From positions 1 through 30,717 of the IMG/VR virus record IMGVR_UViG_3300010370_006882: a stretch of DNA of 30,717 nucleotides; one strand, 5' to 3'. The position numbers and the translations under genes were made by a program. This DNA comes from a virus. Shown in pieces: positions 328-30,717 of this stretch. Below the pieces are notes generated by a model, which did no database searches, was not told the origin of the DNA, and saw only the letters and a program-made list of their open reading frames with translations. Each line of letters begins with the position of its first letter. Positions within the stretch are counted from its first letter, which is position 1.

Positions 328-1329
328 TTAATAGCCTTTTTTATTTAAATATTGTTGCCAGACCCAAGCATCACTTAAACTTTTTTCTAGCGTTGTACAG
401 CAACTAATACCTAATTCATTCTTAACCTTAGTAGTATCAGCAAAAACACTCTCAACATCTCCACATCGTCTTGGTCCCACCTTATACTCTATCTTTTTAC
501 CAATAACTTTTTCTAAAGATCCTATTAGTTGCTTCACACTAATCCCATTACCAGTTCCCACGTTGTATATTTTAAAAACCCCACTATCTAGCATGTATCT
601 TTTTAAAATGCCCACATGACAGTTTGACAAATCATTAACATCCACATAATCTCTAACTGCCGACCCATCAAAAGTGTTATAATCATCTCCATGCAACATA
701 AAATTATCTTTGTTACTAACATAGTTTAATAAACGACTCATTAAACTTTCAGGAGTTTTTTTAGCACACTCTCCTATAGGAATTTTTATATTAGCTCCTA
801 TAGGATTAAAGTATCTTAGCATCACACAATTCAAATCTTTATTTTGATTATAAAAATCACTAATAATTCTTTCACACATTATTTTAGTTTGTCCATAAAC
901 GCTAGACCCACTATCTACATTTTTACTCTCGTCCACAATTCCCCCAGCCTCTCCATAAACTGTACAACTAGATGAAAATATAAAATTGCTGACTCTATAC
1001 TTTTCTATAAATTGTAAAATACTAAATAACGATCCAATATTATTAACATAATAATCCAGCCCCCTCTTCGAACTCTCCCCCACACTTTTATGTGCTGCAA
1101 AATGAATAATTCCATCAATATAATAATTTATGTTAAATATTTCATTACAGCTCCCATTCAAAAATACGCAACAATCTTCTCCATAATAATTTTTAATATT
1201 ATCCACTATCCATTTATAACTATTAACATTATTATCTAGTATAATAGGCTTCATATTGTTTTCTATCAAAGAACAAACAGTATGAGATCCTATATATCCA
1301 CACCCACCAGTTACTAAAATTTGTTTCAT
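328..1329 (-). CDS. galE: UDP-glucose 4-epimerase (GalE)
   Basis: An NAD-dependent short-chain dehydrogenase of the extended type that interconverts UDP-glucose and UDP-galactose, supplying sugars for glycan or polysaccharide synthesis in the cytoplasm. The 333 residues match the usual GalE length (about 338). Visible motifs are the Rossmann GGCGYIGSH at 8-16, FAAHKSVGES at 77-86, FSSSCTVYG at 118-126, the catalytic Y145-x3-K149 pair (YGQTK), RYFNPIGA at 172-179 and RDYVDVND at 226-233. The start ATG overlaps the DUF1501 stop in an ATGA, so the two are probably translated together. A related nucleotide-sugar epimerase specificity (for example GlcNAc) is possible. In a phage setting it could feed glycosylation of virion or host surface; that is inference. 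Confidence 0.93.
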   Translation of the reverse strand: MKQILVTGGCGYIGSHTVCSLIENNMKPIILDNNVNSYKWIVDNIKNYYGEDCCVFLNGSCNEIFNINYYIDGIIHFAAHKSVGESSKRGLDYYVNNIGSLFSILQFIEKYRVSNFIFSSSCTVYGEAGGIVDESKNVDSGSSVYGQTKIMCERIISDFYNQNKDLNCVMLRYFNPIGANIKIPIGECAKKTPESLMSRLLNYVSNKDNFMLHGDDYNTFDGSAVRDYVDVNDLSNCHVGILKRYMLDSGVFKIYNVGTGNGISVKQLIGSLEKVIGKKIEYKVGPRRCGDVESVFADTTKVKNELGISCCTTLEKSLSDAWVWQQYLNKKGY

Positions 1330-2597
1330 ACTATAATCTCTTTGATAATATTTCCCCCATCAACAATCTTTACTGGTCTTTCACCAGGAGCATACAATAC
1401 TTTCTCTTTATCTATGCCTAATAAATAATAAACTGTACTAGCCCAATCTTCAACTGTTACAATATTATCATCAATATCAGTACTAGTATCATTACTTTTA
1501 CCATAAACCACCCCACTCTTTAATCCTCCCCCACCCATAACCACACTAAATACTCTTGGCCAATGATCACGACCAGCAGTAGGATTAATCTTAGGAGTTC
1601 TTCCAAATTCTGTCATAACCATAACCAGAGTACTATCTAAAAGCCCCCTATCACTCAAATCACTAATAAGAGCCCCAAAACCCTGATCAAAAGGAGGCAA
1701 ACTATTTTTCATATTAGTCTCAATATTATCATGATGATCCCACCCACCATAAACCATACTAACAAATCTAACGCCCGCTTCTACTAGTCGCCTACACATT
1801 AACATTCTCATTCCTGCACTATTTTTCCCATAAGCTTCTTTGGTAGCTTCACTTTCTGCTGCTAAATTAAAAGCCTCATTAGCACTTTTAGAACTAATCA
1901 TACTATAAGCATCTTGATAAAAAGAATTCATAGAATCTAATGAGTCGGATCTTTGCTTATCATTAAATTCTTTACTAATAATTTCTAACATAGCTTTTCT
2001 TTTATTAAATCTATCCACACTAATATTATCGGGCAAAACTAAATCTTTAACTTTAAAGTTGGGATTTTCAGGATTATCACCCAAACCAAACGGAGAATAA
2101 CTGTGGCTTAAATATCCTGAACCACTAAATTCATTGTGCAAAGATGGAACATTAATATAAGCGGGCAAATTGTTTCTATTACCATATTGTTGACTAACTA
2201 TACTACCAATACTAGGATACTGAAGAGCCGGACTGGGCCTATATCCTGTAAAGATATTGTGGGTGCCTCTTTCATGAGCACTTTCACCGTGGGAAAATGA
2301 TCGTATAGTAACAATTTTATCAGCTATATTTGCTGTGGACTTTAAAAATTCACTATATAATACGCCGGGAATTTTAGTAGCTATACTATTAAGGGGGCCT
2401 TTATATTCAGCAGGAGCATACGGTTTAGGATCAAAAGTTTCTTGAGCGGAAAAACCACCGGGTAAGTAAATATAGATTACTGACTGGGCCTTAGCATTTT
2501 TAACACCATCATCAGCGCGGGCTAAAGATAAATAATCTCCTAAATTAAGATTTAATCCGGCTATAGTACCCAAGCTTAAAAAATGTCGTCTATTCAT
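1326..2597 (-). CDS. DUF1501 family protein with twin-arginine signal
   Basis: A full-length (423 aa) member of the DUF1501 family, which belongs to the sulfatase/alkaline phosphatase-like superfamily and is expanded in Planctomycetota. The N-terminus MNRRHFLSLG carries a twin-arginine motif (R3, R4), a short hydrophobic stretch and an Ala-Arg-Ala site near residues 26-28, so Tat export is likely. Family motifs seen are HGESAHERGTH at 103-113, GGWDHHDN at 284-291, TEFGRTPKIN at 329-338 and GRDHWP at 342-347; the Asp/His residues are plausible metal ligands. The substrate of the family is not established. A strong AAGGAG site precedes the ATG. It sits between a terminator upstream and galE downstream. 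The reading is firm for the family, unknown for function. Confidence 0.92.
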   Translation of the reverse strand: MNRRHFLSLGTIAGLNLNLGDYLSLARADDGVKNAKAQSVIYIYLPGGFSAQETFDPKPYAPAEYKGPLNSIATKIPGVLYSEFLKSTANIADKIVTIRSFSHGESAHERGTHNIFTGYRPSPALQYPSIGSIVSQQYGNRNNLPAYINVPSLHNEFSGSGYLSHSYSPFGLGDNPENPNFKVKDLVLPDNISVDRFNKRKAMLEIISKEFNDKQRSDSLDSMNSFYQDAYSMISSKSANEAFNLAAESEATKEAYGKNSAGMRMLMCRRLVEAGVRFVSMVYGGWDHHDNIETNMKNSLPPFDQGFGALISDLSDRGLLDSTLVMVMTEFGRTPKINPTAGRDHWPRVFSVVMGGGGLKSGVVYGKSNDTSTDIDDNIVTVEDWASTVYYLLGIDKEKVLYAPGERPVKIVDGGNIIKEIIV

Positions 2598-3162: not shown

Positions 3163-3766
3163 TTTGTATGGTGTTGATGAAACCGAATTCTTAAAAGCTG
3201 TTGATAAAATTAGCAAAAAATTAATCTACAAATTTAAGTTTGGATATCACGAAGCAGAAGATATGAGGCAACAAGCCACCATCTTCGCTCTTCAAGGACT
3301 TAAAAATTATGACAAAAAAAGACCCTTGGAAAATTTCTTATGGACCCACGTTCGTAATAGACTATTTAATTACAAAAGAGATAATTATCAACGACCAGAT
3401 AAACCATGTTTAACGTGTCCATTCTTTAAAAAACAATCTACCGATCCTGATAACGATTGTAGCAAATATACTGATAAAAATGATTGTTCTTTGTTTTCTA
3501 ACTGGCTAGAGAAAAATGCCGCCAAAAAGAATATTATGAAACCCCTTCATATAGAAAATGACAACGATCACTATGCATCAACCAACTTCTTAGATACTAT
3601 TAAAAATAAGGAAATTTTTGATAAAATAGATAAGCATATTTCGGTTAAGCATAGACAAATTTATTTGAGCGTTTTACACGGATCCAAAGTATCTAAAAAA
3701 GATTTTGAAAATTTAATAGCAGCTATTAAAAATATTCTTAATATACCAGAGGATAAAGATGGGTAA
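3104..3766 (+). CDS. Sigma-70-like transcription factor with zinc-type insert
   Basis: Residues 28-92 resemble sigma-70 region 2, the part that binds core polymerase and the -10 box: AEDMRQQATIFALQGL followed by YDKKRPLENFLWTHVRNRL is the recognisable core. After it comes a cysteine cluster (C102, C105, C119, C128) that could hold a zinc ion, and then a C-terminal helical segment (171-212, with VKHRQIYLSVL) in the place of region 4. At 220 residues it is short, like phage or ECF-type factors. The frame has a stop immediately before ATG 3104, fixing the start. It overlaps the next gene by eight bases. The likely job is directing polymerase to late phage promoters; the cysteine insert is unusual. 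Confidence 0.72.
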   Translation: MSKKKKKVTKKNRPIPNQNNLYGVDETEFLKAVDKISKKLIYKFKFGYHEAEDMRQQATIFALQGLKNYDKKRPLENFLWTHVRNRLFNYKRDNYQRPDKPCLTCPFFKKQSTDPDNDCSKYTDKNDCSLFSNWLEKNAAKKNIMKPLHIENDNDHYASTNFLDTIKNKEIFDKIDKHISVKHRQIYLSVLHGSKVSKKDFENLIAAIKNILNIPEDKDG

Positions 3767-4574
3767 AAAACGCGGACAATTAGCTCTTGATGAAGAAAAA
3801 TTTATAAGAGATAATCTTAAAAAGATGACTATAGAAGAAATGTCTGTGGTTCTTAATAGACATACTAATCCTATAAAAAGATACATTAACGAAAACAACC
3901 TATTAGCTGATAATACTGATAATAGCGAATACGAATATTTAAAACACAAATTACATAAAAAAACATTCTGGCAAGAAATTACCAGACAGTTTGATGCTGA
4001 TAGTGGTGAGTTAGTATACTTTGAAGATACTTGGGTAGGATTAATAAAGCAGTTTAGAGAAGACGTTTTACCAGCAGAAGAACTTCAGATTAAACAATTT
4101 ATAACCATAGATATTTTAATTAATAGAAGCATGAAAGAACGTAAACGACATATTACTGATACTGAAAAATTACAAAAATTAGTAGACAAAGAATATGCTA
4201 AACCAGAAGAATCTAGAGATACAGCTTATTTAATGAATTTAGAAACACAATTAAGTTTTGCAAGAAATAGCATAGCAAGCTATACTAACGAATATACTAA
4301 ACTTTTAGCAGAACAACAAAAAATTAGCAAAGACCTTAAAGCTACTCGTGAACAGCGTATTAAAAGAATAGAAGATGGCAAAAGCTCTTGGGCGGGACTA
4401 ATACGAATGCTGGAAGATGAACAAATCAGAGAAGCAGAAGGTCGTCAAATGGAAATTATTAATATGAGCACATCTAAAATGAAACAACAACTTATGGAAT
4501 ATCATCAATATCAGGACAATTCAATAGACATTCCTTTGTTAACACCAGAATCGGTACTATCAAAAGAAAATTAA
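3759..4574 (+). CDS. HTH and coiled-coil protein, possible small terminase
   Basis: Residues 1-45 form an HTH-like domain (DEEKFIRDN, then MTIEEMSVVLNRHT) related to the 75-aa protein encoded on the opposite strand. Residues 85-125 look folded (TWVGLIKQFREDVLP), and about 130-235 are strongly charged and helical, probably a coiled coil (TEKLQKLVDKEY, KLLAEQQKISKDLKATREQR). A DNA-binding head followed by an oligomerising coil is the general plan of small terminase subunits, and the large subunit lies about 4 kb downstream with no other candidate between. A transcription regulator is the alternative. AGAGGA precedes the ATG inside the end of the sigma-like gene. Confidence 0.55.
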   Translation: MGKKRGQLALDEEKFIRDNLKKMTIEEMSVVLNRHTNPIKRYINENNLLADNTDNSEYEYLKHKLHKKTFWQEITRQFDADSGELVYFEDTWVGLIKQFREDVLPAEELQIKQFITIDILINRSMKERKRHITDTEKLQKLVDKEYAKPEESRDTAYLMNLETQLSFARNSIASYTNEYTKLLAEQQKISKDLKATREQRIKRIEDGKSSWAGLIRMLEDEQIREAEGRQMEIINMSTSKMKQQLMEYHQYQDNSIDIPLLTPESVLSKEN

Positions 4575-4669
4575 TGTGTATTAAATTGTATTGCAATACT
4601 AATACTGTTGTCAACCAGGATACATTAGCAGACACATCGCCAAAAAGACGGGTAAATTATGAGTTATAA
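4574..4669 (+). CDS. Micro-ORF, 31 aa, bridging two genes
   Basis: The ATG begins at the last base of the 271-aa gene stop (TAATG) and the TAA at 4667-4669 lies 11 bases inside the next gene, so it fills the 84-base gap exactly. The peptide starts MCIKLYCNTNTVV. It has no clear ribosome-binding site. It could couple translation across the gap or be chance. A 12-bp perfect palindrome GTATTGCAATAC lies inside it at 4588-4599. Confidence 0.25.
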   Translation: MCIKLYCNTNTVVNQDTLADTSPKRRVNYEL

Positions 4670-7433
4670 TCCTGCTTTTTTAAGTACAGATAGCTTTGGC
4701 GACAGAACTTTCTTAACCAATCTTGAAAATAATATGAAGTTATTTCTGGATTGGGGATTTTTAAATATTGGTGCATACCAAAATGTGTCTATTCCTTCAA
4801 CTAATATACACAATTTTAATTTGCATCTTTTACGGCCAAAAAAGGATGCTACTCAATTATCGTATAAAGTATGGATTTCTCCAAAGAAGGACTGGGTTCA
4901 TGAGAGTGGGGTTTGTTTTAAAAATGAATCACCATTAGCTTTTAGTGGTCTATATATTAATAATGTTTTTTATCCTGGTCCAACCGGTAATAATACTATT
5001 GGATACAAGGTGGATTATCCTAATGGTCAGATACTTTTTAATTCAGCAGTGCCACCAACATCAATAGTAGCTGCTGATTATAGCTACAAAATTGTTCAAG
5101 TATATAAATCTAATAGTTTTCCTCAGTGGAAAGAGATTCAATTAGATTCTAGCTTAAATTCATTTAATCAGTTTCAAAAATATGATACGGGCGATTTTGC
5201 TTTAGATGCTGAACATCGAGTACAATTACCATCCATAATTATTGATATTGATAGTAGAAGTACCGCTAAACCATTTAGACTTGGTGATAGATCTCTGATT
5301 ATATCTCAAGATATATTATTACACGTTTTATCTGATAATAAAAATGATAGAAATACTATCTTAGATATTGTTAGACTACAAAAAGATCGTTATGTATGGT
5401 TATTTGATACTAATAAAGTTATAGCGGATAAAAAATACGAATTAAATTTTGATGGATCAATTAATACTAATGGAAATAATTATCATTCGTTAGTTAATAA
5501 TCCAACATATCGTTGGAAATTAAGCAGAATAACTGATGTTAGTTTTTCTGATATTACTTTTTATCATATGAATTTATTTGGGTCTACTATACGATTAACC
5601 CAAGAAATTATTTATGAAGACTTTTCATCTACATGTTTTGTAGAAGATGAAAGTTCTGGATTTAGTGGTGTTGAAAGTATTAGTTTAAGTAGTAGTTCTT
5701 CTAGTTCGAGTAGTGGTAGTAGCGAAAGTAGCGGACCTAGTGTTAGCGAAGGTAGTAGTGCTCCTAGCAGTAGCGAAAGTAGCGGACCTAGTGTTAGCGA
5801 AAGTAGCGGACCTAGTGTTAGCGAAGGTAGTAGTACTCCTAGCAGTAGTGAAAGCAGTAGCGCTCCTAGCAGTAGCGGCAGTAGTAGCGCTCCTAGCAGT
5901 AGCGGCAGTAGTAGCGCTCTTAGTAGTAGTGAAAGTAGTAGCGCTCCTAGCAGTAGTGAGAGTAGCAGTGGAAGTAGTAGCGCTCCTAGCAGTAGTGAAA
6001 GCAGTAGCGCTCTTAGTAGTAGTGAAAGTAGTAGCGCTCCTAGCAGTAGTGAGAGTAGCAGTGGAAGTAGTAGTGCTCCTAGCAGTAGTGGAAGTAGCAG
6101 TGGAAGTAGTAGTGCTCCTAGCAGTAGTGGAAGTAGCAGTGGAAGTAGTAGCGCTAGTAGCGGAACTACTAGTAATAGCACAAGTGAAAGTAGTAGTGCT
6201 AGTAGTAGCACTAGCGATAAATGTAATGTAGTAGGATGTCCAGATGCTGATGAAAATGCTAATATAATTGATTGTGGTTTAGTTGATCCTAATTGTTATT
6301 TTGATTGTAATATTTGCGATTGTATATGCTCTAGTAGTAGCGAAAGTTATATTAGCGAAGGTACAAGTGGTAGTAGTGGAGCAACCAGCGGTAGTAGCGG
6401 AACTACTAGTGGTAGTAGCGGAACTACTAGTGGTAGTAGCGGACCTACCAGCGGAAGTAGTAGCAGCACATCCGAAGCATGTACAGATTGTTATGCATGG
6501 GCGGCTGGTTTAGATGGAAGTAAGATAGGAGTATATATCGCTAATTCAATGGGACTTGTATGTGGTACCAAACTAATGACACTACAATCGAATGGAGGTA
6601 CTTGTGTATCCGGATCAGTAACAATATGTGGTGCCACAGCTGTTGCGGATAGATGCTGTATTCCAGAATGCGACGATTATACAGACTGTAGTTGTTGGCC
6701 AGATAATAGTACTTTATCTTGTGCTACTGGCAGTAAAGTTCGATCTGGGTGCGGATGTAATTATGGTGGAACTGTTATATTTTTACCATCCGAAGCAGAA
6801 GAAGGATGCGAATGTTGTGGATGTGAGGTTGGTACATGTATAGCGTGGGGACCCAATCTTCCGGGTGGTTATTCATGTGGTTGTCCAAGTTCGGATGCAA
6901 CTTGCTGTGGAGATGCTGATAATTTTTGTATTCATACTGTTCCAGGAGATCCTAATCAATCATGTATCGATGGACTAGAAGGAATACCAGGAGGAAATAC
7001 TGGAGATTGTGGTGATTGTGGAGTAACTATTGTAGATCAAACTACATATGATAATACAGGAGAGGTGGTATGTAAAGAAACGTATCTAGCATGTGGTCCA
7101 ATTCTTGCTAGTCCACCACCAATTGAATGCGAAGGAGGATCAGGAAATTGCTTATTTGTTACACAATACCATTGTGCTCTTAAACAAGAATGGATTTGTG
7201 ATTTTATTCCCGATAATCAAGGAGATGATCAAGATTCGTGTGCGTGTTACATTGCTTCTGAAAATTATGTTCCTTGTTCAGAGTGTACTAATACGCCACC
7301 ACCAATGTCTCAACCTGGCGATGATCAAACGCCTGAAGGTTGTCGCAATTTTACATATTGTCAGTATTATGACTGCAATGGAGTATGTGGTGAAGGCGAT
7401 GGATGTGGCCCAGCCAAAACAGTAAATTTTTAA
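4659..7433 (+). CDS. Large Ser-rich and Cys-rich putative virion surface protein
   Basis: This 924-residue protein has three parts. Residues 1 to about 330 are an ordinary globular region with beta-type sequence (for example VDYPNGQILFNSAVPPTSIV), probably the part that fixes it to the virion. Residues about 338-520 and 561-604 are low-complexity Ser/Gly/Pro/Ala/Glu tracts built from SSS, SES and APSSS or GSSGTTS units, likely an extended stalk. Residues 526-560 and 605-924 hold about 49 cysteines, often as CxC or CC, suggesting many disulfides or metal sites. No signal peptide or membrane segment is evident. Position ahead of the packaging genes fits a structural role such as a head or neck fibre. 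The Ser tract is a plausible glycosylation target; adhesion is inference. I do not recognise a named family. Confidence 0.75.
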   Translation: MSYNPAFLSTDSFGDRTFLTNLENNMKLFLDWGFLNIGAYQNVSIPSTNIHNFNLHLLRPKKDATQLSYKVWISPKKDWVHESGVCFKNESPLAFSGLYINNVFYPGPTGNNTIGYKVDYPNGQILFNSAVPPTSIVAADYSYKIVQVYKSNSFPQWKEIQLDSSLNSFNQFQKYDTGDFALDAEHRVQLPSIIIDIDSRSTAKPFRLGDRSLIISQDILLHVLSDNKNDRNTILDIVRLQKDRYVWLFDTNKVIADKKYELNFDGSINTNGNNYHSLVNNPTYRWKLSRITDVSFSDITFYHMNLFGSTIRLTQEIIYEDFSSTCFVEDESSGFSGVESISLSSSSSSSSSGSSESSGPSVSEGSSAPSSSESSGPSVSESSGPSVSEGSSTPSSSESSSAPSSSGSSSAPSSSGSSSALSSSESSSAPSSSESSSGSSSAPSSSESSSALSSSESSSAPSSSESSSGSSSAPSSSGSSSGSSSAPSSSGSSSGSSSASSGTTSNSTSESSSASSSTSDKCNVVGCPDADENANIIDCGLVDPNCYFDCNICDCICSSSSESYISEGTSGSSGATSGSSGTTSGSSGTTSGSSGPTSGSSSSTSEACTDCYAWAAGLDGSKIGVYIANSMGLVCGTKLMTLQSNGGTCVSGSVTICGATAVADRCCIPECDDYTDCSCWPDNSTLSCATGSKVRSGCGCNYGGTVIFLPSEAEEGCECCGCEVGTCIAWGPNLPGGYSCGCPSSDATCCGDADNFCIHTVPGDPNQSCIDGLEGIPGGNTGDCGDCGVTIVDQTTYDNTGEVVCKETYLACGPILASPPPIECEGGSGNCLFVTQYHCALKQEWICDFIPDNQGDDQDSCACYIASENYVPCSECTNTPPPMSQPGDDQTPEGCRNFTYCQYYDCNGVCGEGDGCGPAKTVNF
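5671..6215 (+). repeat. Imperfect tandem repeats encoding Ser-rich stalk
   Basis: Short units of AGT/AGC serine codons interrupted by GAA, GGA and GCTCCT make an imperfect array of 15-30-base blocks; one longer block around 5925-5995 recurs almost unchanged around 6018-6090. The array keeps the reading frame of the 924-aa gene throughout. Long open frames on the other strand and in the next frame across it are by-products of the repeat. Confidence 0.9.
6334..6470 (+). repeat. Second Ser/Gly/Thr repeat tract
   Basis: A run of GGTAGTAGCGGAACTACTA-type units (15 bases, encoding GSSGT and T/S) repeats about four to five times between two cysteine-rich segments of the 924-aa protein. Confidence 0.85.
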
Positions 7434-7448
7434 TATACTAATAAATTT

Positions 7449-7736
7449 ATGAGAAACTTTAAAGATCCATTATATAAAATATGGAGAAAACAAATTTACT
7501 CTAGAGATAATTTCGTTTGTCAATGGCCTAATTGTAATAATAAACAACGCTTAAATGCTCACCATATTTACAAATGGAGCGATTTTCCTGGTTTAAGATT
7601 TAGCCTTAATAACGGAATAACCTTGTGTAAAAGGCATCATGATCTTATTAAAAATAATGAGGATAGTTATTCTGAGTTTTTTACCAAACTAATACTGAAT
7701 AAAAGGACAAATAATGATCATAGAAAAAAAGATTAA
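7449..7736 (+). CDS. HNH endonuclease
   Basis: A 95-residue nuclease of the HNH type. Visible residues are a zinc-binding pair C24-x4-C29, the AHH signature (H38, H39) in LNAHHIYKW, N54/N55 in SLNNGITLC, C60 and H63/H64 in CKRHHDLI. Small HNH proteins next to terminase genes are known in HK97-like phages to work with the packaging motor in cutting DNA at the cos or pac site, and the large terminase lies 1.3 kb downstream. It could also be a homing nuclease, but it is not inside an intron or a split gene. There is no strong ribosome-binding site; the gap from the preceding gene is 15 bases and it overlaps the next gene by 23. Confidence 0.9.
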   Translation: MRNFKDPLYKIWRKQIYSRDNFVCQWPNCNNKQRLNAHHIYKWSDFPGLRFSLNNGITLCKRHHDLIKNNEDSYSEFFTKLILNKRTNNDHRKKD

Positions 7737-8289: not shown

Positions 8290-8755
8290 TAATTTTACAA
8301 TCATTGTTGATACACGAGAACAAAAACCTTGGCAGTTTAATGAATATGCAACTGCTGTTAGAAAATTAGATACTGGAGACTATAGTGTAGAAGGTTTGGA
8401 AAACATATTATGCATAGAAAGAAAAAGAAGTGTTAGTGAAATTGCTAATAATATAACGGAGAGCAGATTTAAAGATGTTTTATCACGAATGTCTAAATAT
8501 AGATTTCCATTTATATTGTTAGAATTTGATCTACAAGACGTTTTAAACTTTCCTGTTGGTTCTGAAATACCAAAAAGTGTTTGGTCAAAAATTAAAATTT
8601 CTCCAAAGTATATATTAAAAATGATACTAGATATGTCTTTAACATATAATATATATGTTATATTTTGTGGAAATAAAACTAACGCAGAAACTTACGCAAC
8701 ATCAATTATGAAAAAAATATATGACAAATACGGAAATCAACAAGAAATTATTTGA
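8282..8755 (+). CDS. ERCC4 (XPF/Mus81-type) nuclease
   Basis: A stand-alone 157-residue nuclease domain of the ERCC4 family, which cuts branched or flapped DNA. Seen are VDTREQKPW at 9-17, LDTGDYS at 29-35 and the catalytic IERKR at 45-49 (E46, K48 in the E-R-K triad), followed by helices ending in a YKFIL-like core (YRFPFILLEFD at 73-83). There is no helix-hairpin-helix domain, unlike the cellular XPF and Mus81 proteins, which is typical of phage versions. The gene overlaps the large terminase by 35 bases. A likely role is removing branches from replicated DNA before packaging, like other phage resolvases; a role in recombination is equally possible. Confidence 0.88.
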   Translation: MDNNFTIIVDTREQKPWQFNEYATAVRKLDTGDYSVEGLENILCIERKRSVSEIANNITESRFKDVLSRMSKYRFPFILLEFDLQDVLNFPVGSEIPKSVWSKIKISPKYILKMILDMSLTYNIYVIFCGNKTNAETYATSIMKKIYDKYGNQQEII

Positions 8756-10757
8756 TGATGCTTGGCTTGGATTAGGGGATATTAGTCTAATAAATATTCC
8801 TAAAAATCCAATGATAGGACGATCAGAAGAAGATATAGAAAATCCAGATATTCATTTATTGCGCTTAATGACTAATCCAATTTATTTTGGATTTACTGTT
8901 AAAGCACTATTTAATATAGAATTACATCCTATACAGATTGCTATTTTACAAGAATTTTGGAACAGACCATTTCCAATGTTTATCGCTAGTCGCGGTTTTG
9001 GTAAGAGCTTTTTATTAGCTCTTTATGCTACTCTTAAATGTATATTCGTTCCTAATACTAAAATTGTGATTGTGGGTGCTGCATTTCGTCAGAGTAAAAT
9101 CATTTTTGAATATATGGAAAATTTATGGAGAAACAGTCCAATATTACGCAGTATATTTAATGGTAATGATGATGGTCCACGACGAGATGTTGATAGATGT
9201 ACGATTAGACTAGGAGATAGTTGGGCTATTGCTATTCCTTTGGGAACAGGAGAAAAAATTAGAGGTTTACGTGCTCATATTATTATCGCAGACGAATTTG
9301 CATCTATTAGTCCAGATATTTATGAAACAGTAGTCTCTGGTTTCGCTGCTGTATCTGCTAGTCCCATACAAAATGTTAAGGCAGAAGCCAAGAAAAAGGC
9401 CATGAGAGAACAAGGATTGTGGAGCGACGAATTAGAAGAATTAAGCATTAGTAAAAGTAATCAGGCAATTATATCTGGAACAGCAGATTATTCATTTAAA
9501 CATTTTGCTAGTTATTGGAAAAGATATAAAGCTATTATTAATAGTAAGGGTGATACAAAAATTTTAGAAGAAATCTTTAATGGCGAAGTACCAGAAAATT
9601 TTAATTGGAAAGACTACTCTATAGTTAGAATTCCTTATGAGTTAATACCCAAGGGATTTATGGATGACAAACAAGTAGCTAGAGCTAAAGCTACTATTCA
9701 TAGTGGTATATATAATATGGAATATGCCGCTTGTTTTACAGCAGATAGCGAAGGATTTTTTAAGAGAAGTTTAATAGAAAGCTGTACGGTTAATGATGAG
9801 AATCCAATCATAGGAAAAGATGGTCCAATTATTTTCGATCCTTGTATTAGGGGAGACTTAAATAAAAAATATGTTATGGGAGTTGACCCCGCTAGTGAAC
9901 AAGATAATTTTAGTATAATAATACTGGAAGTTAATCCTGATCATAGACGAATAGTATATTGTTGGACTACTAATAGAAGTAATTTTAGAGATAGACAAAA
10001 AATGGGTTTAGTTAAGGAACATGATTTTTATGGATTTTGTGCTAGAAAGATTCGTAATTTAATGAAGAGCTTTCCATGCCTAGCCATAGGCATGGATGCT
10101 CAAGGCGGTGGTGTTGCCGTAGAAGAAGCCCTTCATGACCCGTCAAAAATGGAAGAGGGAGAACAATTTATTTGGCCGATTATTAACTATGACAAAGCTA
10201 AAGACACAGACCATCAAATTGGTTTACATATTTTAGAATTAGTTCAATTTGCTAGAGCAGAATGGGTAGCTCAAGCTAATCATGGTTTAAGAAAAGATTT
10301 TGAAGATAAAATAACTTTATTTCCACATTTTGATTCATTAACAATAGGCTTAGCACTAGAAAACGAAGGAAAAAATATTCTTGAGGCTGATCTGAATCCA
10401 CTGTATGACAGTTTTAGCGAATGTATAGTAGAGATAGAAGAATTAAAAAATGAGCTTACAACCATTGTAATGACGCAAACAGGACAAAGCTCAGGATCAC
10501 GAGATCGTTGGGATACTCCAGAAACTAAAACTCCTAATGGTAAAAAGGGAAAATTAAGAAAAGATAGATATAGCGCATTAATTATTGCTAATATGATAGC
10601 AAGACAAATGACTAATCAACTACAGCCTCAAAGATATGATATTATAGGAGATAGTACAAAAAATATGGTCGATGCTAGAGATAAACAAATGTATAGAGGA
10701 CCATCATGGTTTACTGATGCAGCAAATGATGATATATACATGGGAATTCAAAAATAA
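8721..10757 (+). CDS. terL: Terminase large subunit (ATPase and nuclease)
   Basis: The DNA-packaging motor, which hydrolyses ATP to drive DNA into the prohead and cuts genome units. In 678 residues, the ATPase shows an adenine-type PIQIAIL motif near 70, Walker A at 89-96 (ASRGFGKS) and Walker B at 187-192 (IIIADE). The RNase H-like nuclease shows D389 in MGVDPASEQDNFS, D459 in AIGMDAQGG and D615 in RKDRYSALI. Residues 218-245 form a charged helical stretch between the ATPase core and the linker. The first ATG is inside the ERCC4 gene with no clear ribosome-binding site; coupling is likely. Length and motifs are complete. Confidence 0.96.
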   Translation: MTNTEINKKLFDDAWLGLGDISLINIPKNPMIGRSEEDIENPDIHLLRLMTNPIYFGFTVKALFNIELHPIQIAILQEFWNRPFPMFIASRGFGKSFLLALYATLKCIFVPNTKIVIVGAAFRQSKIIFEYMENLWRNSPILRSIFNGNDDGPRRDVDRCTIRLGDSWAIAIPLGTGEKIRGLRAHIIIADEFASISPDIYETVVSGFAAVSASPIQNVKAEAKKKAMREQGLWSDELEELSISKSNQAIISGTADYSFKHFASYWKRYKAIINSKGDTKILEEIFNGEVPENFNWKDYSIVRIPYELIPKGFMDDKQVARAKATIHSGIYNMEYAACFTADSEGFFKRSLIESCTVNDENPIIGKDGPIIFDPCIRGDLNKKYVMGVDPASEQDNFSIIILEVNPDHRRIVYCWTTNRSNFRDRQKMGLVKEHDFYGFCARKIRNLMKSFPCLAIGMDAQGGGVAVEEALHDPSKMEEGEQFIWPIINYDKAKDTDHQIGLHILELVQFARAEWVAQANHGLRKDFEDKITLFPHFDSLTIGLALENEGKNILEADLNPLYDSFSECIVEIEELKNELTTIVMTQTGQSSGSRDRWDTPETKTPNGKKGKLRKDRYSALIIANMIARQMTNQLQPQRYDIIGDSTKNMVDARDKQMYRGPSWFTDAANDDIYMGIQK

Positions 10758-13007: not shown

Positions 13008-14486
13008 ATGCAAATTTATGCTCAAGAAATTAAAGACGGTTTAGCAGAACAGATTCAAGCAAATGCTTCTGTATCGTATGCTTCCGTTGTAACTCCATCT
13101 TCTGCATCTTCACACAATATTAAACATATCAAGGCATTAGCCTCTGTTGGAGATGATGATTTATATTATGTTCAGTCTATTCTTGTAACATCTTCATGGA
13201 ATAAAAATGATGATATCTTTGATAAAGAAGAAGTTTGGGCAGCTAAAAATACTCCAGAAGATAAACCAACAAATCTTAATCATGATGAAAATACTATAAT
13301 CGGCCATATAACTTCTAATTGGCCAATTACAGATGATGGATTACTAATTGATCCCGATACTCCCATAGAAAATTTACCAGATAAATTTCACATATTAACA
13401 GGTTCTGTAGTCTATAAAGCCTATATTAGCGAAGAATTAAAATCACGCACTTTAGCTCTTATAGATGAAATTGAAAATGGTACAAAATATGTTAGTATGG
13501 AGTGTTTTTTTAAGGGTTTCGACTATGGTTTATTAGATAAGAGTTCTGGTACATATAAAATTTTAGCCAGAAATGAGGATACTTCTCATCTTACCAAATA
13601 TTTGAGAGCATACGGCGGTTTGGGCGAACATGAAAACTATAAGATTGGTAGAGTATTAAGACATATTACATTTAGTGGTAAAGGATATGTTGATAAGCCA
13701 GCTAATCCAGACAGTATTATATTAAACGGAATTAATAGTATAAATACTAAAAAAACTTTGTCTGTACAAAGTGACAATGATACTACTATAAAAAATGTAG
13801 AAAAAAATCATTTTTCTACAAATAGTGGTGTAATTGCTAATAACACCGATAGCATTCATACGGAGACAAATCAAATGAGTGAAGAAGCAAACCAAATGAG
13901 TCAACTAGAAGCTAGTCTTCAAGCTAAAGAAAATGACCTACAATTAGCTTTATCAAAATTGACTCAATGCGAAGCAGAAGCTGCTGAAAAAATGAAATAC
14001 AAAGACGAAGAAATGAAGAACAAAGAAGAAGAAATGAAAAAGATGAAAGCTAGCTATGATGAACTTAGCGAAGCTGTAGCAGCTTACAAAATGAAAGAAG
14101 AAGAGATGGCCAAGAAAGAAAAGAAAAATAAAAGAATGGCATCTCTATTAGAGGCTGGTATAGAATTAACAGAAGCAGAATCAACAATCGATAGATTCGA
14201 AACTGTTGACGACGCCACTTTTGATGCTATGACATCCTTGCTTGCTGCTCAAAAAACTAAAAAAGAAACCAAAACAGAAGATCCCAAGAAAGAAAAAGCA
14301 TCAGAAGATAATGTAGTTACAGCATCTGAGGTTGCTGACGAATCATTATTAGACAATGCTGAAGAAGATACTTCTGCTATTGATCTTGCTGTTGGTGGCT
14401 CAGACGATTCACAAGAATCAACCAGAGCAGCATTAATTGATTTTGTATATTCCAGACTCGGCAAAAAACTCAATAAGGGAGAATAA
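13008..14486 (+). CDS. Prohead protease fused to scaffold domain
   Basis: A 492-residue protein with an N-terminal protease (about 40-240) and a C-terminal scaffold. The protease part shows a candidate catalytic His at H92 (LNHDENTIIGH) and Ser at S163 (YVSMECF), and ends in GYVDKPANPDS, a phrase typical of capsid maturation proteases. Residues about 285-375 are a charged coiled coil (repeats of KDEEMKNKEEEMKKMK), followed by an acidic, Ser/Asp/Glu-rich tail, as in scaffolding proteins. Such fusions direct prohead assembly and then cleave themselves and other head proteins. AAGGAG precedes the start. It is followed after three bases by the decoration gene. An internal in-frame start may give the scaffold alone. 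Confidence 0.88.
   Translation: MQIYAQEIKDGLAEQIQANASVSYASVVTPSSASSHNIKHIKALASVGDDDLYYVQSILVTSSWNKNDDIFDKEEVWAAKNTPEDKPTNLNHDENTIIGHITSNWPITDDGLLIDPDTPIENLPDKFHILTGSVVYKAYISEELKSRTLALIDEIENGTKYVSMECFFKGFDYGLLDKSSGTYKILARNEDTSHLTKYLRAYGGLGEHENYKIGRVLRHITFSGKGYVDKPANPDSIILNGINSINTKKTLSVQSDNDTTIKNVEKNHFSTNSGVIANNTDSIHTETNQMSEEANQMSQLEASLQAKENDLQLALSKLTQCEAEAAEKMKYKDEEMKNKEEEMKKMKASYDELSEAVAAYKMKEEEMAKKEKKNKRMASLLEAGIELTEAESTIDRFETVDDATFDAMTSLLAAQKTKKETKTEDPKKEKASEDNVVTASEVADESLLDNAEEDTSAIDLAVGGSDDSQESTRAALIDFVYSRLGKKLNKGE
13875..14486 (+). CDS. Internal in-frame scaffold protein (nested start)
   Basis: The ATG at 13875 is codon 290 of the protease/scaffold gene and has GGAG nine bases upstream (13862-13865), so a separate 203-residue protein beginning MSEEANQMSQLE could be made, containing only the coiled coil and acidic tail. 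Lambda Nu3 and the Mu scaffold are made the same way from nested starts. A second in-frame ATG at 13896 (codon 297) lacks such a site. Confidence 0.55.
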   Translation: MSEEANQMSQLEASLQAKENDLQLALSKLTQCEAEAAEKMKYKDEEMKNKEEEMKKMKASYDELSEAVAAYKMKEEEMAKKEKKNKRMASLLEAGIELTEAESTIDRFETVDDATFDAMTSLLAAQKTKKETKTEDPKKEKASEDNVVTASEVADESLLDNAEEDTSAIDLAVGGSDDSQESTRAALIDFVYSRLGKKLNKGE

Positions 14487-14489
14487 AAC

Positions 14490-14939
14490 ATGGCTCTAAA
14501 ACCAGATCGTGTAGAACTATTAACAGATATCTCTTTTTTCATGAATACAGTGGCAACAAGAGGCGGTGTTGTTTCCGCTGTCACTGCTGGTTCGGGCGTT
14601 GCTATGGACGATGCTAATGCTGTTGTGGCATATGCTGCTAATCCTTCTGGCGCCAAACCACTAGGTATCTTGCTAAATGATGTTGTTAATCTTGATTTAA
14701 CCCGTCAACATATCAATTGGCACAAAGACGAAATGCAATTGGGTGGCAAAGTAACACTACTTCGTCAAGGTCAAGTAACAACTAATCTTGTTGCTGGATC
14801 ACCAACTGCTGGTGCCGACGCCTATGTTGCTGCTAGTGGTTATATTAGTACAGCCCAAGCTGCTGGCGCTGTTAAGATTGGTCAGTTTCTTAGTGCAACA
14901 GATGCTGACGGCTACGCAAAAGTATCAGTTAACCTATAA
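14490..14939 (+). CDS. Head decoration protein
   Basis: A 149-residue protein directly before the major capsid gene, with a strong GGGAGA site. It is Ala/Gly/Val-rich with alternating beta-type sequence (GGKVTLLRQGQVTTN at about 86-100, AAGAVKIGQFLSATDADGYAKVSV at the end) and no cysteines. Small beta-rich proteins in this place bind the outside of the capsid shell and stabilise it. Codon use, rich in GCT and GGT, suggests strong expression like the capsid gene. It may instead be a minor head protein, but size and place favour decoration. Confidence 0.75.
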   Translation: MALKPDRVELLTDISFFMNTVATRGGVVSAVTAGSGVAMDDANAVVAYAANPSGAKPLGILLNDVVNLDLTRQHINWHKDEMQLGGKVTLLRQGQVTTNLVAGSPTAGADAYVAASGYISTAQAAGAVKIGQFLSATDADGYAKVSVNL

Positions 14940-14961
14940 TTAATTAAGGGAGAAAAATAAT

Positions 14962-16627: not shown

Positions 16628-17032
16628 ATGCCAGCATCACAATATGATTTTAGTATAGAACAAGGGTCATCATTTAAGCTATCATTAATATACAAAAATA
16701 ATAGTCAGGTTCCTATAGATCTAACTGGTTGGTGCGCCCGATTAATTTGGACAACTGATGAAGGATCAGTACAAACATTTAGTACCACAAATATTGATTA
16801 TTCAGTATATAAATTTGAAATATTTGGTAGTGAGGGTAAATTACTCTTACAAATTCCAGCCACCACAACAAATCTATTCACATTTGCTACTGCAAAATAT
16901 GATTTGGAAATTGAAAGTCCGAACGAAATGTACACTGGGGGTGGTAATGAAATTATAAGACTATTATATGGTACTATAAAAATGGCTATTAGATATAGCG
17001 AACAAAATAATATATTGGATTGTCAACCATGA
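16628..17032 (+). CDS. Small beta-rich structural protein, paralog A
   Basis: A 134-residue beta-rich protein. It shares its plan with the 135-residue protein at 22164: an opening (S/T)xFKLSL stretch, a P-I-D-L-T-G-W or L-A-D-L-S-G-Y turn, an RLIW or RSSIK strand, a central LLLQIPA or IDLYIPE strand, then KYDLEIES or VYDIEIIN and GTIKM or GTITF. This pattern is common in small phage proteins near fibres, where such domains bind neck or baseplate parts; the exact role is not established. It ends in an ATGA overlap with the next gene. Confidence 0.75.
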   Translation: MPASQYDFSIEQGSSFKLSLIYKNNSQVPIDLTGWCARLIWTTDEGSVQTFSTTNIDYSVYKFEIFGSEGKLLLQIPATTTNLFTFATAKYDLEIESPNEMYTGGGNEIIRLLYGTIKMAIRYSEQNNILDCQP

Positions 17033-22573: not shown

Positions 22574-23077
22574 ATGATTACAGCTCAACATAAAGAACTA
22601 TATAAGGCTATGATAGATTCTTTATTTAATGATAATAGTTTAGCTTTGAACTGTACTTTGATATATGAGAATAGCGATAAAACACAATGTTCCAATTGTG
22701 AGATTGATCCGTTAAGTGGTAGATCAGCTAACCTATATAAAGCTGGCGGATCAGTACCATTTATAGATGGTCAACAGTGTCCTTTTTGTCATGGAGATGG
22801 TTATCTGTTTGATAAAAAAGAAGAAGACATAAAATTACTGGTATTATATGATTATAAATACTGGATTAATTTTAACACTAATGTTGGTATACAGGATGGA
22901 GTTATTCAAACTATAAATAAAGTTGATATCTTAACCAAAATAAAAAATACTAATAGATTAATTGTAGATAAATCTTTAAATGGTTTATCTCGCAATTTAT
23001 TTAGTCGCACATCAGAACCAGAGCCTGCTGGTTTAGGTGATAATAGTTATTTTTTTACGTTTTGGAAAAAGATATGA
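22574..23077 (+). CDS. Neck protein with Cys4 zinc-type motif
   Basis: A 167-residue protein with two Cys pairs (C39-x2-C42 and C69-x2-C72) in QCSNCEIDPLSGRS and QQCPFCHGDGY, an expected zinc knuckle between which PLSGRSANLY and VPFIDG form turns. The second half is beta-rich (KLLVLYDYKYWINF). Small Cys4 proteins of this kind occur between capsid and tail-tube genes in other tailed phages, and the place fits a head-closure or neck function. The start follows the previous stop by two bases and no ribosome-binding site is evident, so coupling is likely. It ends in an ATGA overlap with the next gene. Confidence 0.7.
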   Translation: MITAQHKELYKAMIDSLFNDNSLALNCTLIYENSDKTQCSNCEIDPLSGRSANLYKAGGSVPFIDGQQCPFCHGDGYLFDKKEEDIKLLVLYDYKYWINFNTNVGIQDGVIQTINKVDILTKIKNTNRLIVDKSLNGLSRNLFSRTSEPEPAGLGDNSYFFTFWKKI

Positions 23078-23721
23078 GATTACAAATAGATATATTAGAA
23101 TCTGACTCTTATATTAAAGACCAAATATTAGAAGCTTTAGTTAAAGGTATCAATAAAAAATTACCACCACTATTCAATAATGCTAAAGAATCTATAAAAA
23201 ACACAGTAATAAGTAGTTTAAAAAACCAACCAGAGTATTCATCTTTATTAAATGGACAGCTCAAATATGAATTTGGACTTCCTGATCCTCAACAAAGACT
23301 AGATAGAATCTTAACGGTTTTAGAAAATAGTATGGTGTCATCTTTGGACAAAGTGAGTATAAGTGGCAATTCTTTAAAAAGCGGCTTTAAGATAGAATTT
23401 ATTCGTAGTGACTATAGTGATATTTTACCATTACTAGCATCATCTTTTATTACAGAAAAAGGTTCGAAATTAGAATGGTTAAATTGGTTATTATTACAAG
23501 GAGATAGCGCTATAGTAATGGGGTATTCTTTCGTATTGGGTGGATTTAGATTTTCACGAACTGGCGGCGGTATTATGAAAAGTAATGAATCTGGCCTATG
23601 GAGAGTACCAACACAATTTGCCGGATCGGTTGATAATAATTGGATCGTAAGAGGTATTTTGGGGTGTTCTGATGAGATACAACAAATATTGAACTCTATA
23701 ATCAAAAAATTAGACTCATAA
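23074..23721 (+). CDS. Putative neck/tail-completion protein
   Basis: A 215-residue protein. I use ATG 23074, which overlaps the preceding stop (ATGA), rather than an upstream TTG at 23062. It starts with an amphipathic helical region (about 10-80) and later carries WLNWLLLQGD, RTGGGIM and WRVPTQFAGSVDNNWIVRGI, a spaced Gly/Trp pattern that looks conserved. Between the Cys4 protein and the tail tube it is well placed for tail completion, joining tube to neck. I do not recognise a named family from sequence alone. Confidence 0.65.
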   Translation: MRLQIDILESDSYIKDQILEALVKGINKKLPPLFNNAKESIKNTVISSLKNQPEYSSLLNGQLKYEFGLPDPQQRLDRILTVLENSMVSSLDKVSISGNSLKSGFKIEFIRSDYSDILPLLASSFITEKGSKLEWLNWLLLQGDSAIVMGYSFVLGGFRFSRTGGGIMKSNESGLWRVPTQFAGSVDNNWIVRGILGCSDEIQQILNSIIKKLDS

Positions 23722-23745
23722 AAAACTATAAATTTCATATTGTTT

Positions 23746-23756
23746 GTGTATAAATA
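23746..23756 (+). promoter_or_regulatory. TATAAATA late-promoter-like element before tail tube
   Basis: GTGTATAAATA lies 36 bases before the tail-tube start in a 71-base gap, followed by a GGGAGA ribosome-binding site. It repeats the element at 16036-16048. No good -35 box is present. Confidence 0.35.
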
Positions 23757-23792
23757 AGATAACACAATACACCTTATATACGGGAGACTAAT

Positions 23793-24683
23793 ATGGCTAA
23801 TCGTGTATTTTATGCTTCACAAGGAGTTGCAATCTCTGGAGTAACAGTAGCTGGCGCTCAAAGCGTTGGTGTCCAAAGCAACTTTAATCTAGAACAAGCT
23901 TTCCAATTAGGTCGTCTAGGTATTTATGATAACATTGTTACTAATCCAGAAGTAACAGTAACGGTTAGCAAAGTATTAGATGGCGAAAATACCATTTACA
24001 AAATGGCTACAGGTGGTGGTACACTTATTAGTAATGCTAATGATCAATGTGATATTCTTATTGGTGTTGGTTCTGATACCGCTGCTGCTCTTAGTGGCAC
24101 AGCAGCTATTGAAATGACAGGTATGTATGTTACATCAGTAAGTTATACTTTACCTGTTGATGGCAACTTTACAGAAGAAGTAAGTTTCGTTGGAGATAAC
24201 AAATCAGTAAGCACTGGTGTTGTAACAGCTCCAACCGCTAGTGGTAACACAGTATTGCGTCGTCAACACTATAAAACAGATAGCGTACTACCAGTAGAAG
24301 TTAGTGGTCAAAATATTACTAATATTACTATTAATGCTGACCTTGGTCGTGAAACCATGTTCAAACTAGGTCAGTTCGGGCCATTCCATCGCTTTGTTAA
24401 CTTCCCATTAGAAGTAACTTGCGAATTTGAAGTTAGTGCCACAGGTTTAGATGGTGTTGAAGTTAGTCAAGATGTAGTTTGCACAGGTGGTAACCTACCT
24501 GCTATTCAGCCCATTACTATTAATTTGTGTGATCCAAGCGATGGTACTACATCCTATTCATTTAACCTTGGCCCAAGTAATCGTTTAACTAGTGTTAATT
24601 ATCAGGGTGGTGACACTGGTGGTGGTAATGCTACTATCACATATAGTTATACCACTTATAATGATTTAGATATTAGCGGCTGA
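23793..24683 (+). CDS. Major tail tube protein
   Basis: A 296-residue beta-rich protein with a strong GGGAG site and capsid-like codon choice (CGT for Arg, GCT, GGT), fitting an abundant structural protein. The N-terminus RVFYASQGVAISG and the ordered beta strands ending ITYSYTTYNDLD fit tail tube folds, and it lies ahead of the tail-assembly and tape-measure genes, the normal order. Notable segments are LRRQHYKTDSVLPVEVSG near 155-172, NITINADLGRE near 176-186 and YQGGDTGGGNATITYSY near 271-287. A divergent copy follows directly. It would assemble into the inner channel of the tail. Confidence 0.82.
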   Translation: MANRVFYASQGVAISGVTVAGAQSVGVQSNFNLEQAFQLGRLGIYDNIVTNPEVTVTVSKVLDGENTIYKMATGGGTLISNANDQCDILIGVGSDTAAALSGTAAIEMTGMYVTSVSYTLPVDGNFTEEVSFVGDNKSVSTGVVTAPTASGNTVLRRQHYKTDSVLPVEVSGQNITNITINADLGRETMFKLGQFGPFHRFVNFPLEVTCEFEVSATGLDGVEVSQDVVCTGGNLPAIQPITINLCDPSDGTTSYSFNLGPSNRLTSVNYQGGDTGGGNATITYSYTTYNDLDISG

Positions 24684-27951: not shown

Positions 27952-30717
27952 ATGGCATCAGCATTTAACCTTACTGCACAATTAAATATAGTTGGTCCTA
28001 ATAATTTAAGACCTGTTATAAATAATCTTAGACAACAATTACAAGGACTAAATACTAATGTTAATGTTGGTATTGATCCTAATACATCTCGTAATATACG
28101 AACTGTTACTGCTGATTTGGTAAGATTGAATGGCATATTGTCTCAAACAGCAAGTATTTCTCAACAAGTTAATGCTAATTTAAATAGTATTACCACCTCT
28201 TTTAATAATGCACAAAGAGCAACAAATAATGCTACTGGAGGTATTAATAACGTTAATAATGCATTAAATAATGTTAATAATAATTTACCACAAGCAACTA
28301 ATTCTATGGAACAATTTGGTCGTCAAAGTGCATTAGCGGTTAGACGCTTTGCTGCTTTTGCTGGTGCTACTAGTGTTATTTATGGTTTAACAAGAGCATT
28401 TACATCAGCTTTTGATGAGTTTGTTAAGTTTGATAAAGAACTTATAAGACTAGTACAGGTTACTGGACAAAGTGCTCAATCACTCAAAGGATTAACTAGT
28501 GAAATTAGTAGATTATCAGTATCATTTGGAGTTAGTTCTAGTGAATTGATTAATGTATCTAGTACTTTAGCACAAGCTGGTTTAACTGCAAATCAAACTA
28601 AAACTGCTTTGGAAGCATTAGCTAAAGCCAGCTTGGCTCCATCATTTGATGATTTAAGCAGAACAGTTGAAGGTAGTATTGCTGCTATGAGACAGTTTAA
28701 TATTGGTGCTAATCAACTAGAAAGCGCATTAGGTAGTATTAATGCTGTTGCTGCTGCTTTTGCTGTTGAAGCTGGAGATATTATTTCTGCTATTCAGCGT
28801 ACTGGTGGTGTGTTTGCTGCTGCTAGTAATGGGGTTAGTCAAGGTACTGATGCTTTGAATGAATTCGTAGCAGTATTTACTAGTGTTCGACAAACAACAC
28901 GCGAAAGTGCAGAAACTATCGCTACTGGTTTACGAACTATCTTTACTAGACTACAACGTGGTAGTACTATTAATTTCTTAAAAGAATTAGGAATTAATCT
29001 TACAGACTTAGAGGGTAAATTCGTTGGTCCTTATAAAGCTGTTGAGCTTTTAAATAGAGGATTACGCAATCTTGATCCACGAGATTTAAGATATAGTCAA
29101 ATAATCGAAGAACTTGGTGGATTTCGACAAATCGGTAAAGTGATTCCATTAATTCAACAGTTTGCTGTTGCACAACAAGCATTAAAAGTTGCTCAATCTG
29201 GTAGTGCTAGTTTAGCAAAAAATGCGGCCGAGGCCCAATTAAGTTTAGCAAATCAATTTACAAAAGTTAGAGAAGAATTTTTGAGTTTTGTAAGATCACT
29301 AGGGGAATCTCGTACTTTTAGAACTTTTACTAGTTTAGCATTAGGACTAGCAAGTTCTTTGATATCTGTAGCTAATGCTTTTAAGCCTATTCTTCCTTAT
29401 TTAGCTATACTAGGAACTATACGAGGAACCCAAGCGGCTATGTCATATGGAAGAGGATTTTTGGGTTCTTTTGGTGGAGGAGGTGGCGGAGCAGGAGGAG
29501 GAGGAACAACACCAAATACTCCTGCTACTGGTGGTGGCGGTACTGGTGGTGGAGGTAGGCGTGGTGGTGGTGGAACTCAACAAAATGTTTTAAATAATGC
29601 TACTGTGGTTGCTAATACAACTGCTATTACTAATAATATTACATCGTTAAATAATAATACAACAACACTTAATTCTTTAATAAATGCTGTTAATAGTTTA
29701 TCTAGAGGACTAAATAGTGCAATAAATATTTTTGCAAGATTATCAACTCAAAGAGGAGCATTTGGTACTGGTGGTAGAGTTTTAGGTTTTAGTAGCGGTG
29801 GAAGTGTTCCTGGAAGTGGAAATGGAGATAGCGTATCGGCCATGTTGGAGCCGGGCGAGTTTGTTATTAACAAACAGGCTAGCAAAAAATTAGGATCTAG
29901 AAATCTTGAAAAATTAAATAAATACGCTAAAGGAGGACCAGTAAAAGCATCTGATCTTAAAAATGTTCCTACTCTTAGAAGTAGGATTAAATCTGCTAAT
30001 TCTAATATTGATGAAAAAGAATTTTTATCAGGATATTATTTGACAGATAGTGATTTAATTACTTTTAATAAAAATGAATACTCTGTTAAGGCTAATCCAA
30101 ATATAGGATTTAGTAAATTTGAAGAAAAAGTTCATAATATTATTGGGGGAACATTAAAAGGAGGTAATTATCCAATAGATATTATTGATAGCAATTTAGG
30201 ACTAGTAGAAGTAAGGAATAGACAAAAAACCACTAAAGATAAAATCTTATTGAGTAAATTATTAAGACATAAACTTTTAACTGGACAAAATTTAATTAGT
30301 AATAGAAAAGGTAAAGATATTAATTTAGATGCTGGTTCTATAGGAGTAGCATATAATTCTGGTAAATTACAAAGATCTCGTTTCGAATCTTTAGATAATA
30401 AAAATTTAGGAGGTTTAATACAAGCTTTTGCAGAAGGTGGTGTGGCAAGTCTAGCACAAGAAAAAGGACAGTCTTTAACTGATGCTATATTAGAACAGAT
30501 AACTGCACTAGGAGGAATTAAAGGTGTTAAACAATTAGTTGGATCTTCAGCCGGAGATAGAAAACTAGATGCTCTATTAAGAGCTGGTAACATTAAAGCT
30601 TCTAGAAATATAGATCAGGTTACAGCTATTGTAGATAGAGCACTAAGCAAATCTGGTACAACAAATGCCGCAGAAAGAAACAGAGTAGCTAAATTAAAAA
30701 AGGTTGGAGTAGCAGGA
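27952..30717 (+). CDS. Tape-measure protein (N-terminal 922 codons, partial)
   Basis: Open to the right edge with no stop. It sets tail length. The TP901-type core lies from about residue 164 to 420 (LVQVTGQSAQSLKGLTSEI, SRLSVSFGVSSSELINVSSTL, then AVFTSVRQTTRESAETIATG and LGGFRQIGKVIPLIQQF). A Gly-rich linker is at about 507-545. The phrase GGSVPGSGNGDSVSAMLEPG at about 616-635, then EFVINKQA, is typical of tape-measure proteins. Residues about 723-775 (FEEKVHNIIGG, YPIDIIDSN, LGLVEVRNRQ) resemble a nuclease-type fold, described under findings. The start ATG at 27952 has AGGAAA nine bases upstream. C-terminal parts, which often include lysozyme or peptidase domains, are outside the window. 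Confidence 0.93.
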   Translation, partial: MASAFNLTAQLNIVGPNNLRPVINNLRQQLQGLNTNVNVGIDPNTSRNIRTVTADLVRLNGILSQTASISQQVNANLNSITTSFNNAQRATNNATGGINNVNNALNNVNNNLPQATNSMEQFGRQSALAVRRFAAFAGATSVIYGLTRAFTSAFDEFVKFDKELIRLVQVTGQSAQSLKGLTSEISRLSVSFGVSSSELINVSSTLAQAGLTANQTKTALEALAKASLAPSFDDLSRTVEGSIAAMRQFNIGANQLESALGSINAVAAAFAVEAGDIISAIQRTGGVFAAASNGVSQGTDALNEFVAVFTSVRQTTRESAETIATGLRTIFTRLQRGSTINFLKELGINLTDLEGKFVGPYKAVELLNRGLRNLDPRDLRYSQIIEELGGFRQIGKVIPLIQQFAVAQQALKVAQSGSASLAKNAAEAQLSLANQFTKVREEFLSFVRSLGESRTFRTFTSLALGLASSLISVANAFKPILPYLAILGTIRGTQAAMSYGRGFLGSFGGGGGGAGGGGTTPNTPATGGGGTGGGGRRGGGGTQQNVLNNATVVANTTAITNNITSLNNNTTTLNSLINAVNSLSRGLNSAINIFARLSTQRGAFGTGGRVLGFSSGGSVPGSGNGDSVSAMLEPGEFVINKQASKKLGSRNLEKLNKYAKGGPVKASDLKNVPTLRSRIKSANSNIDEKEFLSGYYLTDSDLITFNKNEYSVKANPNIGFSKFEEKVHNIIGGTLKGGNYPIDIIDSNLGLVEVRNRQKTTKDKILLSKLLRHKLLTGQNLISNRKGKDINLDAGSIGVAYNSGKLQRSRFESLDNKNLGGLIQAFAEGGVASLAQEKGQSLTDAILEQITALGGIKGVKQLVGSSAGDRKLDALLRAGNIKASRNIDQVTAIVDRALSKSGTTNAAERNRVAKLKKVGVAG

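Follow-up and report, generated by a model that had tools for sequence, protein, structure and literature searches.

A putative tail terminator with a stalked, cysteine-rich C-terminal arm in an uncultured phage group

What does a phage do with a protein that joins a virion-type domain to serine-rich repeats and a segment crowded with cysteines, and where on the particle would such a protein sit? The stretch of DNA analysed here (the window; IMG/VR virus record IMGVR_UViG_3300010370_006882, 30.7 kb) contains a block of head and tail genes and, upstream of the terminase gene, a single-frame ORF at 4659-7433 (+), running from an ATG at 4659 to a stop codon ending at 7433 and encoding 924 aa. A preliminary description of the DNA had given exactly these coordinates and a layout of a 330-residue virion-type domain (residues 1-322 in our delimitation) followed by two Ser/Gly stalks and a Cys-rich end, which our analysis bears out (Table 1). 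The CC and CxC runs that it mentioned were also recovered, the tip containing three and six of them, respectively, together with five CxxC motifs and only two His. Its figure of about 49 cysteines is correct for the part of the protein beyond residue 520, but the total is 51 (residues 86 and 326, eight within 522-557 and 41 within 608-916). It put the density at roughly one Cys in seven to eight residues, where we count about one in eight, and gave the Cys-rich segment about 350 residues where we find ~317, and "giant" overstates a protein of 924 aa. Genes of the window are referred to below by their start position (w23062 is the gene at 23062..23721).

Table 1. Features of the ORF at 4659-7433 and of the surrounding genes in the window.
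Feature	Position	Strand	Evidence or remark
Conserved gene, left neighbour of cargo slot; possible small terminase or regulator	3759..4574	+	71-79% identical in relatives
Putative tail-terminator domain, residues 1-322	4659..5624	+	homologues, AlphaFold, Foldseek; complete relatives end at same point
Short linker with Cys326, motif [ST]xTC[FI]V common to L082	5625..5669	+	pairwise alignment
Ser-rich stalk 1, residues 338-520	5670..6218	+	63% Ser, tandemly repeated DNA
Inter-stalk segment with 8 clustered Cys, residues 521-557	6219..6329	+	Cys positions
Ser/Gly/Thr stalk 2, residues 558-607	6330..6479	+	composition, repeats
Cys-rich tip, residues 608-924, 41 Cys	6480..7430	+	composition; homologue searches empty
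HNH endonuclease, right neighbour of cargo slot	7449..7736	+	
ERCC4-type nuclease	8282		
Terminase large subunit (TerL)	8721..10757	+	
Large gene, portal by position	10804		position
Gene in head and tail block	13008		
Virion protein	14490		
Major capsid protein (MCP)	14962		distant match to Bacillus phage G head protein
Fibre genes	17312, 18663		
Conserved gene of ~215 aa, immediately preceding the terminator gene in relatives	23062..23721	+	
Empty canonical terminator slot, 71 bp	23722..23792	+	also empty in L002
Putative tail tube protein	23793..24683	+	position and weak PHROG virion-protein match
Tape measure protein, cut by window end	27952..30717	+	PHROG 28, E 1e-25

The composition of the extension is exceptional within its own genome and among related phages. 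Cysteine accounts for 12.7% of residues 601-924 (41 of 324), compared with 0.84% across the other window proteins (binomial P ~2e-34), and the densest 300-aa stretch holds 39 Cys, against a maximum of 30 among 585 proteins of at least 300 aa from 15 related phage contigs. The same 324-aa C part contains 23 aromatic residues (Y13, F6, W4). Serine makes up 116 of the 183 residues of stalk 1 and 24 of the 50 residues (48%) of stalk 2, and the stalk-coding DNA is spanned by tandem repeats with units of 12-93 bp (5718-6155 and 6362-6460). Codon statistics favoured the frame of the ORF over the other five in each of the N-domain, stalk, middle and C-terminal segments (for the stalk after allowing for a one-base offset of the segment), and when the C part was shuffled 5000 times by mononucleotide, no stop-free sequence arose.

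The N-terminal domain provides the handle on where this protein belongs. Homologues of residues 1-322 were detected at 89 loci, with identities of 35-59%. At 86 of these the domain is a stand-alone protein encoded directly downstream of a homologue of w23062, a gene of the neck region, and there it is followed by a w23793 homologue in 81 cases and by an unassigned gene in five; the order w22574, w23062, N-domain, w23793, ahead of the tape measure gene, is found at 81 of the 89 loci. Among the others, one covers the downstream part only and one contig ends right after the domain. Of 32 related records, 30 carry the N-domain once. The identity of w23793 as the tube protein is itself taken from its position and one weak match.

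An AlphaFold model of the N-domain built from 52 aligned sequences reached a pLDDT of 84.3; an earlier model from 9 sequences (pLDDT 42) was too poor and was discarded. When the model was compared with the PDB using Foldseek, the best match was T5 p142 (E 7.9e-4), accompanied by the P1 tail protein, T4 gp15, lambda gpU and several neck terminators. Nearly all of the top matches were terminators (E 8e-4 to 1e-2, probability ~1.0), and the matching viral proteins carry names such as tail completion or sheath stabiliser. TM-scores, at 0.18-0.29 by query, were low, the alignment being confined to the core. The domain had no sequence match in the PDB and none in Pfam or PHROG, including the profiles of known terminator families. 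Terminators diverge beyond profile detection, and the missing profile match was therefore not counted as excluding one. Since the fold matches and the gene position agree, we identify the N-domain, with high confidence, as a tail terminator. Like T5 p142, T4 gp15 and lambda gpU, it has the core fold according to Foldseek, neighbours the putative tail tube gene in relatives and occurs in single copy; it differs from them in lacking a sequence-level match, in its move upstream of the terminase gene and in the stalked, Cys-rich extension of ~600 aa. It is the only terminator found in the window, and since this core tail gene has no second copy there, the 924-aa protein is very probably present in the virion. 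A terminator match in another related genome (G019:C1:30748-31686) contains a TAA inside the aligned stretch.

The gene has left the place where its relatives are found. The canonical terminator slot between w23062 and w23793 is empty in the window and in L002, whose MCP is 98% identical to that of the window, and only the window and L082 have an N-domain gene in the place flanked by w3759 and the HNH gene. This upstream position is a variable cargo slot. In relatives it is empty at 15 loci, and most of the others carry an epimerase/GDP-mannose-dehydratase-like gene there, for example L013 2057-3046 (28 loci with one unassigned gene, two with a match to the window's own epimerase and two with two genes). 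The ~600 extra residues begin exactly where the stand-alone relatives end. In moving to a cargo slot, an essential tail gene illustrates how such additions may come about.

L082, a separate IMG/VR contig, carries the closest terminator (59% identical) at the same new place, in the order w3104, w3759, N-domain with Ser stalk, HNH, a 7714-like gene, ERCC4-type nuclease and TerL. Its protein continues from a short linker with one Cys into a 77-aa Ser stalk and a 28-residue tail devoid of Cys, and there is no Cys tip. Because L082 shares the place and the stalk but not the tip, either relocation and stalk predate the tip or L082 has lost it. The two sequences make the variation in repeat length proposed in the preliminary description plausible, with a stalk of 77 aa in L082 compared with 183 + 50 aa here. 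That description had also tied its idea of a displayed fibre to conservation of the cysteines among homologues, and here the outcome is divided: the closest homologue has the stalk without the Cys-rich part, and the tip is therefore, to judge from these sequences, an exchangeable accessory module, while the idea of display itself stands.

Searches for the tip returned no homologue in IMG/VR, phage records, the PDB or Pfam, and for this reason conservation of its cysteines cannot be shown. Within all proteins of the 15 related contigs and the other loci the tip matched only itself, and a search of IMG/VR with the whole 924-aa protein found no relatives. Among annotated phages, a match in Gordonia phage Nodigi (E 7) was discarded. 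Similar architectures nevertheless occur in the group: a 208-aa protein of G001 with a Ser/Gly stalk and 25 Cys, a 221-aa protein of L007 with a Pro/Ser stalk and a Cys-rich domain, a 419-aa protein of L047 with a Thr/Pro stalk and a Cys-rich end, and a 690-aa protein of G005 in which TP-rich stalks are joined to Cys-rich domains. All place a low-complexity stalk beside a Cys-rich domain as in the window, but on other anchors or none and with no significant sequence similarity to the tip; the G001 protein was tried as a relative of the tip and rejected (E 0.93). G007 carries FGE-sulfatase-like (C-type-lectin-like) domains on long TPTP stalks (L322 10686-13208 and 14833-16122 (-), from G007). 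These proteins point the same way, namely that phages of this group carry exchangeable modules on low-complexity stalks, and it appears that stalked Cys-rich modules are exchanged between proteins among its members, which would be a source of new disulfide-rich binding domains. Furthermore, the terminators of L098 and L112 bear ~150 extra residues of a different domain at the N-terminus (L098 5518-5970; L112 5506-5970), showing that the ring protein tolerates additions; a lectin identity suggested for this domain by eye was not upheld by Pfam, the PDB or PF07828 (PA-IL).

Other Cys-rich proteins were noted along the way. The L047 protein (14182-15441) has no Pfam match and contains a GDPHM motif that recalls von Willebrand D, G025 (71828-74031) encodes two adjacent related proteins of 377 and 366 aa whose ends reach as many as 18 Cys per 100 residues, and G004 (58-1482) encodes one of 474 aa that contains 44 Cys. 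Neither the window nor G001, both incomplete, yielded a redox helper gene. Thioredoxin is encoded by 7 of 18 relatives, although by neither of these two, and a search for Erv1/Alr was empty, as were its controls.

The reading that we favour, and hold to be reasonably probable, is that the protein is a tail terminator with a C-terminal arm of ~600 residues, and that it exposes disulfide-rich modules on stalks at the neck, where they would serve in secondary attachment or protection. According to this model, the terminator domain would assemble as a ring, presumably of six copies, at the head-proximal end of the long tail, where it would stop growth of the tail tube and join tail to head. From each subunit a flexible Ser-rich stalk, the eight-Cys cluster, the second stalk and the 41-Cys tip would project outward into the medium. 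The tip, synthesised under the reducing conditions of the cytoplasm, would form its disulfides after lysis, and in oxidised form it could decorate the neck as an accessory that binds host or surfaces or that gives protection. The outward display proposed in the preliminary description remains plausible, but the terminator anchor would place it at the head-tail junction rather than at the tail tip. This neck location is well supported, and the arm is probably sticky or protective on the outside of the particle. Because the tail is long, the arm would act far from the tail tip, and tethering to cells or particles fits better than primary receptor binding. A bolder version, conceivable but doubtful, makes the terminator a neck-mounted adhesive: six tips, reduced and flexible in the cell, would become disulfide-rich binding heads by oxidation at lysis (or form cross-links to other thiols of host, matrix or virion), such that release itself would switch on secondary attachment at a distance from the tail tip.

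Decorated necks have precedents. Lactococcal phages carry binding modules on neck collars (PMC6669499), an Alteromonas phage has neck whiskers (PMC8265664), and in Agrobacterium phage Milano the terminator-tube, collar and neck, as well as the tail, are cross-linked by disulfides (PMC10491603). The neck passage structure of the lactococcal 936/TP901-1 phages resembles the proposed arrangement in having stalked accessory modules at the head-tail junction with variable tips and a conserved N-terminal anchor. Its parts differ, however, with a BppU-like beta-sandwich anchor, a coiled-coil stalk and a carbohydrate-binding tip in place of the terminator ring, Ser-rich stalk and Cys-rich tip of the window (PMC6669499); these lactococcal features are absent here, where the N-domain matches terminators, the stalk is Ser-rich and the tip has no Pfam domain. 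Milano shares Cys-rich neck virion proteins and shows that phage virions can carry disulfides (PMC10491603), but its cysteines are scattered and form inter-subunit bonds in ordered proteins, whereas those of the window are packed into one module carried by a flexible stalk. Our literature search turned up no comparable phage virion protein rich in Ser and Cys. As far as these sources show, stalked neck decoration (neck whiskers, collar decorations) is a known kind, while the relocated terminator anchor and the Cys tip are new to described systems. Tail terminators are usually viewed as plain assembly rings; if the proposal is true, a core assembly ring is also a display platform.

The tip could act through its thiols in other ways. 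Binding of metal ions (Zn, Cu, Fe) by thiolates, with metal rather than disulfides providing cohesion or function, would suit the CC and CxC motifs and synthesis in a reducing cytoplasm, yet it is unlikely given the two His, the 23 aromatic residues in the C part, a Cys content that is low for a metallothionein and the absence of a match to any metal-binding family of Pfam. A metallothionein-like protein was rejected on the same Cys content and aromatic count and for want of a Pfam family profile. Equally improbable is a tip that mainly stabilises the particle, with disulfides among the six tips, or to tail or capsid, locking the head-tail junction as in Milano. The neck location, the cross-linked Milano neck (PMC10491603) and the odd number of cysteines beyond residue 520 agree with this, but staples would hardly be expected at the end of low-complexity stalk exceeding 230 residues, and L082 has the stalk without the Cys-rich part.

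It could also be asked whether the arm has any function. In a cargo slot where other members keep epimerase genes, a recent accidental fusion with a cargo gene could be translated to no purpose, and both the lack of a tip homologue and the restriction of a similar extension to one relative are compatible with this. We consider such a fusion very unlikely: about 600 codons are free of stops with genome-typical codon use in frame, the stalk is kept in L082 at 59% identity, and similar stalk-plus-Cys proteins exist elsewhere in the group. That metagenome assembly joined the N-domain to unrelated DNA is hardly credible. The protein does come from a single contig and its stalk DNA is repetitive, but the separate L082 contig encodes a 59% identical protein in the same gene order and the frame is kept over all junctions.

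The phages concerned are large, abundant, uncultured and aquatic, with more than 600 stretches in IMG/VR matching the MCP, some of them on contigs of at least 200 kb. The host is likely a member of the Planctomycetota, because the DUF1501 protein of the window (1326-2597) matches proteins on four Planctomycetota MAG contigs (57-59% identity; 53-67% GC). This protein has a Tat-like signal and lies with a nucleotide-sugar epimerase at 328-2597 (-). Two PHROG 1084 members (16628-17032 and 22164-22571) flank the fibre genes of the window. The tape measure of G001 has 3894 aa, from which a tail of roughly 0.6 micrometre would be expected at 1.5 A per residue (our own estimate). Tape measure ORFs of 5078-7733 aa, each a single ORF in a fragment, occur in G005, G013, G014, G008, G007, G025 and G020 and would imply tails of ~0.8-1.2 micrometres on the same scale; the longest are those of G014 (7733 aa), G013 (6929 aa) and G005 (6454 aa).
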